The position numbers and the translations under genes were made by a program. A stretch of DNA of 64,000 nucleotides, taken from the NCBI RefSeq assembly GCF_023702065.1, contig NZ_QFDM01000003.1, positions 124,001 through 188,000 on the forward strand, in the 5' to 3' direction. This stretch comes from Methanoculleus oceani. GTDB lineage: Archaea; Halobacteriota; Methanomicrobia; Methanomicrobiales; Methanoculleaceae. The notes under the pieces were generated by a model. It was not told the origin of the DNA. It ran no database searches and was given only the letters and a program-made list of their open reading frames with translations. Shown here in pieces: positions 9,062 through 62,454 of the stretch. Every line of letters begins with the position of its first letter. The first letter of the stretch is position 1.

Positions 9062-9215
9062 GGGGTCGTGGCCTAGTCCGGAATGGCGACGGGCTCCAGC
9101 GGTCTTTGCACGTGATGAACAATGGGTCTCCTGATTGAGAGATGATGACCCGTTGGAGCACTGATGCATGTTCGGAGAGACCCGTCGATCGTGAGTTCAA
9201 ATCTCACCGACCCCA
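9062..9215 (+). tRNA. tRNA-Trp (CCA anticodon) with 80-nt intron
   Basis: The acceptor GGGGTCG/CGACCCC, anticodon stem ACGGG/CCCGT and T arm GTGAG-TTCAAAT-CTCAC are intact, and the anticodon CCA is at 9096-9098. The intron begins after G37 (9099) and runs 9100-9179; A38 at 9180 starts the second exon. This is the canonical archaeal intron position, removed by the splicing endonuclease at a bulge-helix-bulge. The discriminator is A and CCA is not encoded. Confidence 0.93.
9100..9179 (+). ncRNA. intronic box C/D guide RNA in pre-tRNA-Trp
   Basis: The intron contains a C box GTGATGA (9112-9118), D' CTGA (9131-9134), C' ATGATGA (9142-9148) and D CTGA (9161-9164). Applying the N+5 rule, the D guide TGGAGC pairs with GCTCCA and places C34 opposite the fifth base; the D' guide GGGTCTC pairs with GAGACCC and targets C39. 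Both targets lie across the exon-intron junctions, as in the known euryarchaeal tRNA-Trp system in which the intron directs 2'-O-methylation of its own pre-tRNA at positions 34 and 39. The flanking TGCA/TGCA bases can form the terminal stem. Confidence 0.9.
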
Positions 9216-9256: not shown

Positions 9257-9831
9257 TCATTCCGCCTTCTTCTCCTCCTCGGCGGCAGCCGCGGCCCGGT
9301 TGAGATCGCTCTCGCGGTAGGTGAGCGCCGATATGTCGCCGTCGCTCTCGATGTAGGCGACCCGCACCTTCTCGATTCCATCGATACCTCTTGCACGGAG
9401 TGCGACGGTTCATTAGAACCGGAGCTTGAGCACTCGAAGAGTGCGAGCCGCTCGACGAGATCCTCGCGGGTCATCAGTTCCCTTTTGAGGCTCCGTTCGA
9501 TGACCCGGCCGTTCTCGATCACCTTGAGCGCTCCCGGGGAGACGATGCTGCGGATCCGCCGGCTTTTGTACTGCCCGACGGAGACGAGCACCGAGAGGAA
9601 GAGAAGCGTCGATGCGCTGACCAGCCCGGCAAGGAGCGATTCGTCGCCCGCGGTGAGTGCCTCCGAGATGCTTTCGGATATGATCAGCAGGAGGATCAGG
9701 TAAAAGGGCGTCAGCTGCCCGAACTCGTGCCTGCCGATGACCCGCATGACAAGCAGAAGGAAGAAGTAGATCACGGCCGCCCGGAGGATGAGTTCGGGGA
9801 GCGGCGTCTGGAGGACGAAGAGTTCCGACAT
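9257..9831 (-). pseudogene. YetF/DUF421 membrane protein, disrupted by 41-bp insertion
   Basis: The first part encodes a DUF421 (YetF-type) protein: three membrane helices (YFFLLLVMRVIG, FYLILLLIISESIS, LVSASTLLFLSVLVSV) followed by the soluble region SPGALKVIENGRVIERSLKRELMTREDLVERLAL. The frame is then lost. The natural C-terminus continues in another frame as LRARGIDGIEKVRVAYIESDGD and ends at the TGA at 9257-9259. The break coincides with a 41-bp insertion between direct repeats of GAGTGC (9398-9403 and 9439-9444); removing one unit restores a continuous family-like protein. The insert is a copy of the palindromic repeat family found elsewhere in the window. An alternative frame continues to 9073, but it runs through tRNA-Trp and looks like noise. 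Confidence 0.85.
9398..9448 (+). repeat. modular palindromic repeat, copy A (inside yetF-like gene)
   Basis: GCGAC, then hairpin GGTTC-ATTA-GAACC, then GGAGCTTGAG, then hairpin CACTC-GAA-GAGTG, then CGAG. This is one complete module of the family also seen near 16.5, 42.8 and 58.4 kb. It is flanked by 6-bp direct repeats and causes the frameshift in the surrounding gene. Confidence 0.8.
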
Positions 9832-12100: not shown

Positions 12101-13855
12101 ATGAAAGTGCATGTGATGGCAGGAGCGCTCCTGCTGCTTCTTGCCGTCGCCGTGCTGGCAGCGCCGGTTGCGGCGGCGGAGGAGTATGTATTTGTGACGA
12201 AGTGGGGATCAGAGGGGTCAGGTGAGGGGGAGTTTAGAAACCCAAACGATGTCGCCGTGGACGCTGCCGGCAACATCTATGTGGCTGACTACAGCAACCA
12301 CCGCATTCAGTTGTTCGATTCAAATGAGAACTTCCTCGGGCAGTGGGGATCATACGGGTCTGGCGACGGACAACTGATCCAACCCATTAGTATTGCCTTT
12401 GACGCTGCTGGCAACGTCTATGTGGTCGAGGCTGATAATCACCGCATTCAGGTGTTCGATCCCAGTGGGTACTCCCTCAGTATCTGGGGATCATACGGAT
12501 CTGGTGACGGGCAGTTTGTGAGGCCCGGGGGTATTGCCGTTGACAATGCCGGCAATTTTTATGTAGCCGATAGTTGGAACCACCGCGTCCAGAAATTCGA
12601 TTCCAGTGGGAACTTCCTCGCTATATTGGGCTCACAGGGGTCTGGCGACGGGCAATTTGGGTCTCCGATTGACGTTGCCGTGGACGCGGCCGACAACATT
12701 TATGTGACAGACTGGGAACTCAACTGCATCCAGAAGTTCGACTCCAACGGCGCTTTCCTCAGCAAGTGGGGATCATCAGGATCCGAAAATGGGCAGTTTT
12801 ATCACCCATATGGCGTTGATGTCGACGCTGCAGGTGATATCTACGTGACTGATTGGGACGGCAACCGCATCCAGAAGTTCGATTCAAATGGCATCTTCCT
12901 CACGAAATGGGGTTCATTTGGGTCTGATGACGGAAAATTTAGAACCCCGTGCGGTATTACCGTTGACGCTGCTGGCAACGTCTATGTGGCTGATTTCTAC
13001 AACAACCGCATCCAGAAGTTCGCCCCCATCCCCATACCGACAATCGCCGGGATCATTCCCGACTCCGGCCCCAACACCGGCCCCGTGAGCATCACCGACC
13101 TCTCCGGCACCGGGTTTATCGACGGCGCGACCGTGAAACTCACCAGGGCAGGCGAGGCGGAGATCGTAGCAACCGATGTCTCCGTCGTCTCCTCAACACA
13201 GATCACCTGCACGCTGGACCTGACCGGCGCTGCCGTGGGTTCCTGGAACGTCGTGGTGGCGAACCCCGGAGGCCAGCCCGTCACCCTGGCGGACGGGTTT
13301 TCCGTGACAGAAGCCGCGAACAGCCCGCCCGGGGTCACGACGGTGACGGCGCCCACAGACCCCCAGCTCCCGGGAAGCCTGATCCAGGCTACCGGCACGT
13401 TCACCGATCCTGATGAAGGGGATTCGCATACGGCGCTATGGGCCTGGGGTGACGGAGTAACGAGCGAAGGGCCGGTGGACGAGGCAACGGGTACCGTCAC
13501 CGGCTCGCACACCTACACCGCGCCCGGGACCTATATGATCACCCTGACCGTGACGGACAGCGAAGGCGCTTCGGGCTCCGGGACCGCAACCATCACCGTG
13601 CAGACGCCTGCCGAAGCGACAGCGGATCTGATCGAGCAGGTGGAGAGCCTCGAACTACCGGGCGGGATTGGAAATGGCCTTACCGTTAAACTGGATAATG
13701 CCATCGTGGTGCTGGACAGCGGAAACGAGCATGCAGCCAGCAACTATCTCAGTGCCTTCATTAACCAGGTGAAGGCGCAGAAAGACAAGAAACTGACCGC
13801 CGAAGATGCCGACGCCCTGATCGCCATGGCGCAGAGGATTATCGACAGCATTTAG
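12101..13855 (+). CDS. secreted NHL-repeat / IPT-TIG / PKD surface protein
   Basis: 584 residues. Signal peptide at 1-25 (ALLLLLAVAVLAAPVAAA); then six NHL blade repeats (about 28-305) of the form GNIYVADYSNHRIQLFDSNG with a GSGDGQF connector; an IPT/TIG immunoglobulin-like domain (about 308-390, PTIAGIIPDSGPNTG); a PKD domain (about 395-500) containing WAWGDGVTS and HTYTAPGTYMITLTVTD; and a C-terminal helical module of about 70 residues (LTVKLDNAIVVL, AASNYLSAFINQV) resembling the FIMAH-type domain of surface proteins. It probably sits outside the cell in adhesion or matrix interactions. AAGGAGGT 6 nt before the ATG supports the start. A T-run, ACTTTTTTTCG, follows at about 13888. Confidence 0.85.
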   Translation: MKVHVMAGALLLLLAVAVLAAPVAAAEEYVFVTKWGSEGSGEGEFRNPNDVAVDAAGNIYVADYSNHRIQLFDSNENFLGQWGSYGSGDGQLIQPISIAFDAAGNVYVVEADNHRIQVFDPSGYSLSIWGSYGSGDGQFVRPGGIAVDNAGNFYVADSWNHRVQKFDSSGNFLAILGSQGSGDGQFGSPIDVAVDAADNIYVTDWELNCIQKFDSNGAFLSKWGSSGSENGQFYHPYGVDVDAAGDIYVTDWDGNRIQKFDSNGIFLTKWGSFGSDDGKFRTPCGITVDAAGNVYVADFYNNRIQKFAPIPIPTIAGIIPDSGPNTGPVSITDLSGTGFIDGATVKLTRAGEAEIVATDVSVVSSTQITCTLDLTGAAVGSWNVVVANPGGQPVTLADGFSVTEAANSPPGVTTVTAPTDPQLPGSLIQATGTFTDPDEGDSHTALWAWGDGVTSEGPVDEATGTVTGSHTYTAPGTYMITLTVTDSEGASGSGTATITVQTPAEATADLIEQVESLELPGGIGNGLTVKLDNAIVVLDSGNEHAASNYLSAFINQVKAQKDKKLTAEDADALIAMAQRIIDSI

Positions 13856-16285: not shown

Positions 16286-16716
16286 GGGTGGCGAGAGCGG
16301 CCGGAAGAAACCCGGGGTCTTAAGGGTCCCGTCGTTGCCGGGTGTTGCACTCCGTCCGTGTTCTTCGCACCTCTTGGAACCGTAAAAAGTGTAGAGGGGT
16401 CCCAGTACACTGGACCGTGGAGGATATCGCGTCTGGGGGAAGGGGCTGACGGGGAGTGCGACGTTCCGAAGGAACGGAGCTCGACCACCGTCAGGTGGGG
16501 AGGGGGGTCTCCCCCCTCGAAACCCTCCGGGTTTCTCATGCTCACTTCGTTCGCACTCCCCATTGTCCCCACCCCCGTGGCGAGACTCCCTCGAAATCCG
16601 TGCATGGGGATAAGCGATGTTCCGAAGAAAGGCACTACTATAGAGTTGAGTTCAAGCCTGAAGATGCAGATGATGGCCTCGGGGACAAAACTTCCGGGCC
16701 GACAAAACAGCCCTCT
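16286..16716. other. intergenic region rich in palindromes
   Basis: No gene is supported. It holds the double palindromic module at 16454-16559 and another inverted repeat around 16402-16424 (GGTCC/GGACC with CAGT/ACTG inside). The frames that cross it contain repeat-encoded low-complexity residues only. Confidence 0.6.
16454..16559. repeat. modular palindromic repeat, copy B (two modules head to head)
   Basis: Left half on plus: GCGAC with hairpin CGTTCC-GAA-GGAACG, GGAGCTCGAC, hairpin CCACC-GTCA-GGTGG. A central hairpin AGGGGGG-TCT-CCCCCCT follows. Right half on minus: GCGAAC-GAA-GTGAGCATGAG, hairpin AAACCC-GGA-GGGTTT, CGAG. The linkers match the other copies while stem sequences differ. 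Confidence 0.75.
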
Positions 16717-42783: not shown

Positions 42784-42881
42784 TCGCTCGAAGCCTGGCG
42801 GCTTCTCATGCTCCGGAAGTTTTCCGTCGCTGCTCGAAAACGCTTCGCGTTTTCTCATGCTCCTGCCGTTCCGGCAGTCGC
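42784..42881 (-). repeat. modular palindromic repeat, copy C (two tandem modules)
   Basis: On the minus strand: GCGAC, hairpin TGCC-GGAAC-GGCA, GGAGCATGAG, hairpin AAAACG-CGAAG-CGTTTT, CGAGCA; then a second module, GCGAC, GGAA/TTCC hairpin, GGAGCATGAG, hairpin AAGCC-GCCA-GGCTT, CGAGCGAC. It lies directly before the trm-G10 gene. A degenerate half-module (GGGAGTCCGAG) occurs at about 42709. Confidence 0.8.
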
Positions 42882-58394: not shown

Positions 58395-58495
58395 GCGACG
58401 CGTGCCCCGAAGGGGCAGGCGGAGTTCGAGAAAATTGCGCAGCAATTTTCGAGGGCGATGCTCCGTCAGGAGCAGAGTCCGAGCACCGCCAAACA
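58395..58495 (+). repeat. modular palindromic repeat, copy D
   Basis: Begins immediately after the fdhB stop: GCGAC, hairpin TGCCCC-GAA-GGGGCA, then GGAGTTCGAG, hairpin AAAATTGC-GCA-GCAATTTT, CGAGGGCGA, hairpin TGCTCC-GTCA-GGAGCA, GAGTCCGAG. The linker sequences match copies A-C; stems differ. Confidence 0.8.
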
Positions 58496-59580: not shown

Positions 59581-62454
59581 TCACCGGCCCCGGCTGATCT
59601 CGCCGACGGCCGCAATGAGGAGGTCGATCTCGTGCTCGGTCGTGAAGGCTGCCATACTCGCCCGAACCGTCCCCTCCGGGAGGTTCAGGTGCTCCATCAG
59701 CGGCTGGCAGCAGTGGTGTCCCGACCGCACCAGGATGTCCGCATCCTCGTCGAGCATCTGTGCGGCCTCCTGCGGGTGGACGCCGTCGAGGGTGAACGAG
59801 ACGACCCCGATCCGGGCTCCCGGCCTTCTCCCGGCATAGACCGTGACCCCATCTATTGCGGAGAGCCCCTCGATCAGCCGGGCGGTCAGGCGCTCCTCGT
59901 GCCGGTGGACCCGCTCCATCCCGATCGCCGAGAGGTAATCCACGGCGACCCCGAGCGCGATCCCGCCGCCGATGTTCGGCGTCCCGGCCTCGTAGCGCTG
60001 GTAGCCCTCCGCCGGCTCATACCCCTCAGCCGTCACGCTCGCGACCATGCCGCCGCCGAGGGTCGGTGATTCGAGGAGAAGATCCCGCATCCAGAGGACA
60101 CCGGTCCCGGTCGGCCCAAACATCTTGTGCCCCGCGAAGCAGAGGAAGTCGCAGCCGAGACTTGAGACGTCGACCGGCATGTGCGGCAGCGACTGGGCTC
60201 CGTCCACGAGGAAGAGCGCGCCATGCTCCCGGCAAAGCCGCGCGATCTCTTCAACAGGCGTCGTCACGCCGAGGACGTTCGAGGCGTGGGTGACGGTGAC
60301 GAGCCGGACGGCGCCTCCGGCCAGGGTCTCCTCGAGCGCGGCAAGGTCGAGCGAGTAGTCGGCGTCGATCCCGATCACGTCGAGCGCGACGCCCTGTTTT
60401 GCAAGCGCTCTCCAGGGGAGGAGGTTTGAGTGGTGCTCGAGGATGGTGGTCACCACGCGGTCCCCCGGCTTCCAGGAGAGGCCCTGCGCGACCATGTTGA
60501 TCGCGTCCGTGGCGTTCTTCGTAAAGACCGTCACCCCCGCCTCCCCGCCGATGAACCGGGCCACCTTCTCGTGGGCGTGCCAGTAGCGCTGCGTCGCGAT
60601 CCGGGTCAGGCGGTGAACGCCCCGGCCGACGTTGGCCCGGTAGCGGTGTTCGAACTCGACGAGCGCCTCCACCACCGGTTCCGGCGAGAAACTCGTCGCC
60701 GCATTGTCCAGGTAGACGATGTCGCCGAGGATCGGGAAGTCTCCCCGGATCTCGTCCGGGGTAAACTCGTTCTCTGCCGGCGTCGCCGGCTCAGGCGTTT
60801 CCAGAGTCTTCGTTGTAGCCACCTCCACGCTCTTCTGGACCGGGGTAGCCCGGCTTTCCGGGGTAGTCCGGCTCTCCGGGGTAGCCCGGCTTTCCGGGGT
60901 AGTCCGGCTCTCCGGGGTAGCCCGGCTTTCCGGGGTAGTCCGGCTCTCCGGGGTAGCCCGGCTCTCCGGGGTAGTCCGGCTCTCCGGGGTAGCCCGGCTC
61001 TCCGGGGTAGCCCGGCTCTCCGGGGTAGTCCGGCTCTCCGGGGTAGTCCGGCTCTCCGGGGTAGCCCGGCTCTCCGGGTCCTCCCGGAGGGTGAAGTCAT
61101 CGTTCAAGGGGATGCCCCGGTCCCTGCAGACCTCGCGCATCTTCGGGGGCAGCGCCCGCCACCGCCAGAGTCCCCACCGGTGGTAGGCGTCCGGCATCCC
61201 TGTCTTTCCCGCCCACCTGATAAGGAATTCGTCCCAGCGATCCGTCAGTTCCGGGTGCATCTCCCGGAGCCCCTCGTACTCGCTCTCGAGCACCGCCGGG
61301 CAGGTGTAACAGCCTATCCGTTCGAGGCCCTTCTCGTAGAGCGGGTTCATGGGGGCCTCCTGCCACCAGAGGTAGAGAAAGACCTCGAGCGCCCGCCAGT
61401 TCCTGATCGGCGAGATGTTCAGTTGCAGGGGGTTTGCCGGGTTCTGGCTCGTCTCGTCGAGGTCGGCACGGTTCCAGGACTCGTACCAGCGGTTCCCCTG
61501 GATGGTGACGCAGGAGCCGAGCCCGGCGAGGTAAATCTTCAAGGGGTGGAGTTTCAAGAGTTTGCAGCACCAGCGGTGGTCCTTCCCCGGCGGCCCCGCC
61601 TTCTCGACCGCCTGGAAGAAGTCCCCGCCTTTCCGCACGATCTCAACGCCCTGGGACGCCACGAACTCCACGGTCTCGGGGAGTTCAATCCCGGTGTCGA
61701 TGAAGAACGCCTTCTCTACCCCCGCCTTTCGTGCAAGGTGGAGGACGGCGGTGCTGTCCTTGCCGCCGGAGAACGAGACGTTCACGCACGGCCGGTCGTT
61801 CATGTGCTTCTTGATTGTGCGGATCGCGTTCCGCTCGAGGTTCTTCAAGTGGTAGCGGTTCTTCTCGATCACCACGTCCCAGTCCGGGTCGGGCCGGGTG
61901 CGGGGCTCGACGGGGACGAGTTCCTTCACCCGGACCTGCCCGTCCCTGACGATGCCGGTGCCGAACCGGTTCCTGTAGGATACGATGACCGTCCCGTCGG
62001 GCACGGGGGTCGCCAGGGGGAACCGCTTCCCGCCGATACGACCCTTATGGGCGCTCACGGCGGGCTCGGTCTCGAGATCGACGATCCCCCGGGTTGCATG
62101 CGGCAGGATGTGCGGGAGCGCCTCGGGGGCGATATCGAGGCTGAACTTCCGGGTGATGGGGTCGAACGAGAGCCAGCCGAACCGGTCGCCGTGCACGATC
62201 ACGAGATCGGTCCGGTCGACGCCGCCGGTCTTGTTCAGGAGCACGACGTGGGGCAGGGGAATATCGCCGAACCGTTCGGCAAGAAGGCGCCGGATGAGGG
62301 CCATGTCGGCGGCGAGGGCAGGCCGGACGTCGTGCGGCTGCAGAAGCTCGATCTCCCGGACTCTCGTCTTGCAGGCGCAGGTGCGCCCGATGAGGGGGAC
62401 GTTGCACTGGTCGCACCAGTAGAGGAATTTTTTGACTGCCGGTTCGCGTATCAC
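59581..62454 (-). CDS. PAPS-reductase-like ATP pyrophosphatase fused to cysteine desulfurase
   Basis: 957 residues. A zinc ribbon ([12 protein letters not shown]) and a PUA/OB-type region precede an ATP-pyrophosphatase domain of the PAPS-reductase family ([22 protein letters not shown] near residue 230; RWCCKLLK and the Cys-rich CYTCPA). Then follow thirteen ESR(A/T)TP hexapeptides and a SufS-type desulfurase (from about 585): [13 protein letters not shown] Lys in [10 protein letters not shown] and catalytic Cys in [11 protein letters not shown]. It would mobilise cysteine sulfur and pass it to an ATP-activated target, such as a tRNA base or cofactor. Both catalytic halves look intact. Confidence 0.88.
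60842..61075. repeat. 18-bp minisatellite encoding ESR(A/T)TP linker
   Basis: Thirteen direct copies of GGGGTAG(C/T)CCGGCT(C/T)TCC, read on the plus strand. On the minus strand each encodes one hexapeptide of the linker. The first six units alternate as a 36-bp higher-order repeat (TAGCCCGGCTTTCC / TAGTCCGGCTCTCC). In frame throughout, so copy-number changes keep the fusion intact. Confidence 0.95.

Follow-up and report, generated by a model that had tools for sequence, protein, structure and literature searches.

A YetF/DUF421 gene of Methanoculleus oceani is interrupted by a 47-bp insert, and this insert is one unit of a structure-defined, two-hairpin repeat family. We assign a probability of roughly 0.78 to the reading that the insert is a copy of a non-autonomous mobile repeat, which entered the gene at a CTC trinucleotide, was inherited, and later had its second hairpin exchanged, with insertion duplicating 3–4 bp of the target. 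The gene lies in a window of 64,000 nucleotides (the whole stretch of DNA analyzed), and orthologous sites were retrieved by searching 35 genus genomes, including that of the window (G000), at the DNA level. Fifteen genomes had a match over the insertion site, and partial matches were obtained in G028 and G015.

Anatomy and Borders of the Insert

The interrupted gene occupies the minus strand, with its start at 9831 and a TGA stop whose expected position is judged from relatives (Table 1). The ORF beginning at 9831 enters the insert and then departs from the DUF421 frame, which is broken at 9398–9444 (minus strand). In the intact G004 orthologue, PF04239 (DUF421) matches residues 89–164 with an E value of 1.2e-15, and the match is continuous across the insertion point. 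The intact orthologue (L089:7891-8418) scored 57.6 bits against PF04239, above the cut-off of 23.6; its score of 20.9 bits against PF20730 (YetF_N) fell below the cut-off of 26.5. The first 129 residues encoded in the window reached only E = 0.0026 against PF04239, with the match ending at profile position 42, and no Pfam match at 0.001 was found for the whole broken ORF. Because the DUF421 profile runs continuously through the empty allele, the empty state is taken as ancestral. Convergent with the DUF421 gene is a tRNA gene at 9062–9215 (plus strand; Rfam matches RF00005 and RF01133), whose intron contains an sR3-family box C/D RNA.

Alignment with 14 relatives places the insert between GCGG-CTC and the following CGNGC and shows that it measures 47 bp in this genome, against 46 bp in each of the six further species that carry it. 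A 41-bp insertion into a yetF-like gene, bounded by GAGTGC direct repeats representing the duplicated target, had been proposed in a first-pass annotation of the DNA. The insertion is real and does break the frame, while its length is corrected by the alignment of filled and empty sites. GAGTGC does occur twice on the plus strand, at 9398–9403 and 9439–9444 (41 bp apart), and the copies are part of the module: one forms the 5′ arm in hairpin 1, and the other is composed of the module tail GCA and the target CTC. GAGTGC was accordingly rejected as a target duplication, being internal to the module in the filled/empty alignment, from which the actual duplication at this site is CTC (3 bp).

Table 1. 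Positions in the window of the interrupted gene, the parts of its insert, and further units of the repeat family
Feature	Position	Strand	Basis
YetF/DUF421 gene, part 5′ of the insert, 128 codons	9448..9831	-	alignment with 14 orthologues; PF04239
CTC, upstream copy of the target duplication	9445..9447	-	filled/empty alignment
Hairpin 1, GCACTC-TTC-GAGTGC	9430..9444	-	scan, fold
Connector TCAAGCTCC	9421..9429	-	family alignment
Hairpin 2, GGTTC-TAAT-GAACC	9407..9420	-	comparison with other filled species
Module tail GTCGCA	9401..9406	-	structural scan, family alignment
CTC, downstream copy of the target duplication	9398..9400	-	filled/empty alignment
DUF421 gene, part 3′ of the insert, not in the frame of the start codon, TGA at 9257–9259	9257..9397	-	
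Family unit, CTCC on either side	16463..16498	-	structural scan, flank comparison
Two head-to-tail family units	42790..42876	+	structural scan
Family unit	58400..58450	-	structural scan

Hairpin 2 and parts of the connector in G000 differ from those of the other six filled species, which display GGACG-TCC-CGTCC at the hairpin 2 position (one base off in G009 and G032). Compared with shuffled sequences, the insert of G000 folds better (z = −2.88) and that of G003 no better (z = −0.85). Elsewhere in G000, a unit at locus L120 has a hairpin 2 one base off that of the DUF421 insert, a resemblance by which this unit may be the donor of the exchanged hairpin.

Filled and Empty Sites across the Genus

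The insert is present in seven of the 15 orthologues (G000, G009, G003, G011, G006, G008, and G032) and absent from eight (G004, G029, G002, G017, G001, G005, G027, and G034). Empty sites read GCGG-CTC and continue directly into the next codons (G002 has TTG in place of CTC). Filled sites read GCGG-CTC, then hairpin 1, connector, hairpin 2, and RTCGCA, then a second CTC (CTT in G008), followed by the same next codons as in empty sites. The first-pass annotation had expected empty relatives to display a single GAGTGC and had named an insert carried by all relatives as the outcome that would speak against it; the eight empty sites bear out the insertion, with a single CTC instead, and the insert is plainly not universal. 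The insertion had also been called recent. Sequencing error and recent insertion are both rejected, given that the insert is common to seven species, whose genes differ by 11–18% from the window gene; judged from these alignments, the insertion is old and shared by several related species. In G029 (L024), the empty DUF421 allele also carries a 1-bp deletion that breaks the frame.

In a tree built from two neighboring genes (2877 columns), the filled species fall in a clade of nine, with the empty G004 and G005 inside (support 82); resolution is poor in the tree built from the DUF421 gene. With these two empty species inside the filled clade, the insert must either have been gained once and then precisely lost or replaced through gene exchange, or have been gained more than once.

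Conservation around the Insertion and the Fate of the Gene

The gene is probably dead or truncated in the filled species, either as a slowly decaying pseudogene or as a working N-terminal part, with the frame behind the insert kept through lag and chance. Being about the gene, this reading does not conflict with the mobile-repeat account of the insert. Six of the seven filled species have their frame broken by the insert; G032 has regained an open frame via a 10-bp deletion, and in G006 (L020), a 10-bp deletion upstream in the filled allele produces a further frame break with stops. Moreover, a G+C-rich frame of ~42 codons can avoid stops by chance. Death or truncation is opposed by a constraint-like pattern behind the insert, where the original frame and stop are retained in all seven filled species. 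Over 20 codons, pN/pS behind the insert is 0.297 (0.280 in empty species), with values of 1.09 and 1.82 in the other two frames; over 26 codons, it is 0.442 (0.400 in empty species). Variable columns number 3, 4, and 10 by codon position, a third-position excess at roughly p = 0.03, and the four to five small indels recognized by eye behind the insert are all multiples of three except the frame-restoring one in G032. The unusual conservation of the insert itself also sits poorly with a dead or truncated gene.

Across six species, the insert varies in 4 of 46 columns, compared with a mean of 12.4 (range 3–25) in 323 equal-length upstream windows, and its mean pairwise difference is 0.029, against a mean of 0.120 and with no upstream window so low; the upstream windows overlap and the species share descent, which makes this comparison less than a formal test. 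The inserts are nearly identical between differing flanks, which would suit independent insertion of the same unit at a hot spot in each species instead of once in an ancestor; the empty sites of G004 and G005 inside the clade and the different hairpin 2 of G000 point the same way. We nevertheless consider independent insertion unlikely, as the unit type of six filled species occurs once per genome and is confined to the DUF421 locus (35 genomes, up to 2 mismatches), such that no donor is seen. Four other places in the 35 genomes display 3 mismatches to the insert unit and have different stems. The restriction of the unit type to this locus in six species makes a single gain likely.

A further possibility is that ribosomes would hop from CTC to CTC over the insert, so that the DUF421 C-terminus would still be made and the insert kept as a bypass element. 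Matched in-frame CTC codons flank the insert in six of the seven filled species (the landing codon is CTT in G008), and the frame and stop retained in all seven, the pN/pS value resembling that of empty species, and the low variation of an insert that has no donor copy would all suit such a mechanism. A hop would also explain better than a frameshift why the frame after the insert stays the same although insert length differs (46 and 47 bp). However, matched codons follow from target duplication alone, and the short stretch and related sequences make for weak statistics, with the higher pN/pS over 26 codons. The second frame break of G006 and the reopened frame of G032 would be needless were bypass working, and the G003 insert folds no better than shuffles. 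We know of no translational bypass in archaea. Bypass thus seems very improbable, and a dead or truncated gene appears more likely than a bypassed one.

A Two-Hairpin Repeat Family

Units of the family to which the insert belongs consist of hairpin 1, the connector TCNNRCTCC, hairpin 2, and RTCGNN, in this order. Stems are replaced wholesale yet are still complementary, and the connectors are constant. A covariance model retrieved matches in 33 of the 35 genus genomes, with at least 156 in G000 (match counts per genome are lower bounds), in agreement with the first-pass description of the insert as a complete copy of a repeat family of this genome. Order-wide, 41 of 150 genomes yielded matches, which outside the genus were numerous only in G119. 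This genome (L161) belongs to a different genus within the same taxonomic family and yields at least 41 unit-model matches, and the sampled rest of the order has 1–4 or none.

A structural scan of ~0.67 Mb of orthologous stretches identified 36 units, six of which are the DUF421 insert in different species; scanning reversed and shuffled sequence returned 0 units each, which rules out chance. Within the window, a search for near-identical copies found the DUF421 locus itself as the sole match, and four more units share the same architecture (Table 1). A looser sequence pattern yielded mostly places with 3 mismatches, and inspection of these loci revealed that the stems vary. The 96 distinct units in the collected loci comprise 17 arm types of hairpin 1 and 34 of hairpin 2. 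Among 46 aligned units, 91% of cells are paired and covariation is 0.583, compared with 0.183 in shuffled and at most 0.161 in slid alignments, figures that are descriptive more than proof because the aligned units came from a scan requiring pairing and both connectors. A C preceding hairpin 1, which the scan did not demand, is present in 96 of 96 units. The first two pairs of hairpin 2 are G–C in 33 and 31 of the 46 units and U–A in 12 and 12. Six of 30 G000 units are spanned by an ORF of at least 150 codons with third-position G+C of at least 0.7, a count that is ambiguous in a G+C-rich genome, two loci being too short for this test.

Other repeats in the window include an 18-bp tandem repeat with 13 overlapping copies (60786–61123) and a 141-bp direct repeat (12197–13022) with six copies, 66–75% alike to the reference, perhaps from a repeat-domain protein.

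Evidence for Mobility

A second filled/empty pair (G003 and G005) was identified inside a MITE-like terminal repeat, again with exact junctions and with an imperfect duplication (CTC and CTTC). The remaining loci compared are mostly whole intergenic blocks that vary between species, with few clean single-unit pairs. In 34 of 120 arrays, the tetranucleotide preceding hairpin 1 recurs directly after RTCGNN, compared with a mean of 12.8 and a maximum of 23 for shuffled partners; a 5-bp flanking duplication occurs in 0 of 120. When the 51 arrays that adjoin another unit or are further copies of the DUF421 site are omitted, an exact 4-bp duplication flanks 23 of the 69 isolated arrays (mean 7.7, maximum 15 in 2000 shuffles).

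Arrays also lie within the loop of a palindrome made by their own flanks (18 of 119; expected 5.1, maximum 11). Nesting was evaluated over 157 arrays, more loci than in the 120 of the flank tests, by removing the guest together with one duplication copy and checking the remainder for a complete host unit. Thirteen arrays, several of which may be one locus seen in different species, are nested in a hairpin of such a host, 12 of them in hairpin 2 (expected 1.7, maximum 5), and an exact 4-bp duplication (CTTC) is found at the expected offset in four of the 13. This nesting, itself evidence from sequence, suggests that units move through a process guided more by structure than by sequence. The first-pass suggestion of a mobile family that duplicates a short target was therefore right in kind, given the filled/empty pairs, 4-bp duplications, and nesting; the duplicated target is not GAGTGC and, away from the DUF421 site, is mostly 4 bp such as CTTC. 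Arrays do run head-to-tail, with a perfect example of 7 units in G006, and a 148-bp block distinguishes G003 from G004, but spread solely by replication slippage and recombination within arrays is the least probable reading, as dispersed single units with empty orthologues and units nested in unit loops are not slippage products.

The MITE-like element measures ~100 bp, with ends CTTCGCG...GTGAG / CTCACGCGAAG..., and carries units in its terminal repeats (L114 in G005 and L100 in G003). In L084 and L089, it is also found close to where the DUF421 gene ends (3′ side), and blocks of 300–580 bp are wholly present or absent between species.

Candidate mobilizing enzymes were sought by family. Y1_Tnp (PF01797) was not found in G000 and was matched in 7 of the 35 genomes, five of which have at most 9 units; of 30 Y1 loci checked, 0 had adjoining units. 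IS110 (7 of 35 genomes) and the reverse transcriptase RVT_1 (3 of 35) were likewise not found in G000. A RAYT, IS110, or reverse transcriptase is ruled out as the present mobilizer, these families being absent from G000. This absence counts against a transposition account, as do the exact 4-bp duplication in only 23 of 69 isolated arrays, the duplication of only 3 bp at the DUF421 copy, the exact 4-bp match in just four of the 13 nested cases, the chance that several nested cases are a single locus, and the loss, exchange, or extra gain needed to explain the empty G004 and G005 inside the filled clade.

Under the preferred account of a non-autonomous mobile repeat, units would enter directly after a tri- or tetranucleotide that ends in C (CTC, CTTC, CTCC, or similar), duplicating 3–4 bp, and would often land in a palindrome loop or in a hairpin loop of another unit, presumably through an enzyme acting in trans on hairpin loops. 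Reuse of a CTTC-type inter-unit spacer as target would generate head-to-tail arrays; block duplication is seen as well. One such unit would have entered the YetF/DUF421 gene at GCGG-CTC-CGG, just after codon 129, in a common ancestor of seven or more Methanoculleus species, splitting the DUF421 domain and its frame and probably impairing the gene before being passed down. In G000, hairpin 2 would later have been swapped, probably by conversion from another copy.

Relation to Known Elements

REP/REPIN elements with RAYT resemble the present family in being short, palindromic, intergenic, high-copy, and apparently mobile without a gene of their own (PMC3116915, PMC3733652). In contrast to these elements, the units here combine two different hairpins head-to-tail rather than as inverted pairs (PMC3116915, PMC3733652). 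The GTAG tag was not seen in the present units, which have RTCG behind hairpin 2 (RTCG was demanded by the scan); a Y1 transposase was not found in G000, nor were units beside Y1 loci, and the family displays wholesale stem change and a short target duplication.

CGTC-tagged REPs are alike in having no dedicated transposase, GTCG behind hairpin 2, and copies inside ORFs, but possess 8–9 bp stems whose first two pairs are A–T, together with a CCA tail, whereas the first pairs here are mostly G–C and the stems ~5 bp (PMC3733652). CGTC-tagged REPs carry an unpaired CGTC at one end; in units here whose hairpin 2 finishes in C, this paired base and the bases that follow spell CGTC. Methano- genera are not mentioned in the paper on CGTC-tagged REPs (PMC3733652).

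Rickettsia palindromic elements are likewise palindromic and located inside protein-coding genes, but measure ~150 bp and are in frame, whereas the insert here is 46–47 bp and frame-breaking (PMC10969869). Insertion sequences that target REPs similarly enter palindromic repeats at a fixed point; the inserting element here is instead a 45–50 bp hairpin repeat entering its own kind (PMC1525189). Two satellite families with periods of 45 and 51 nt have been tabulated for Methanoculleus marisnigri as tandem repeats only (PMC6749651). Their period fits the arrays described here, and, compared by description, they may be the same arrays; structure, dispersal, and insertion are not described in the part of that paper compared (PMC6749651). 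Translational bypass elements (T4 gene 60, yeast mitochondria) resemble the present insert in size, matched end codons, and a kept frame (PMC5009743).

Relative to a MITE, the units lack terminal inverted repeats: in the consensus, neither end (TTCGCACC... and ...GTCGCA) is the inverted form of the other. The short target duplication is MITE-like (CTC here, 4 bp in 23 of 69 isolated arrays), and of three families sought as a parent transposase (Y1, IS110, and reverse transcriptase), none was found in G000.

A partial literature search found no description of the two-hairpin Methanoculleus family, although its arrays may be among those in the satellite paper. Judged by the features tested, it belongs to neither the RAYT nor the CGTC class and represents a new REP-like mobile family in archaea. 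Archaea, on whose REP-like families the literature consulted says little, thereby gain a hairpin repeat that is abundant, defined by structure, and apparently transposing. Two questions become testable: which enzyme would place DNA into the hairpin loops of Methanoculleus, and whether a long-kept, out-of-frame insert in a gene gets read around.
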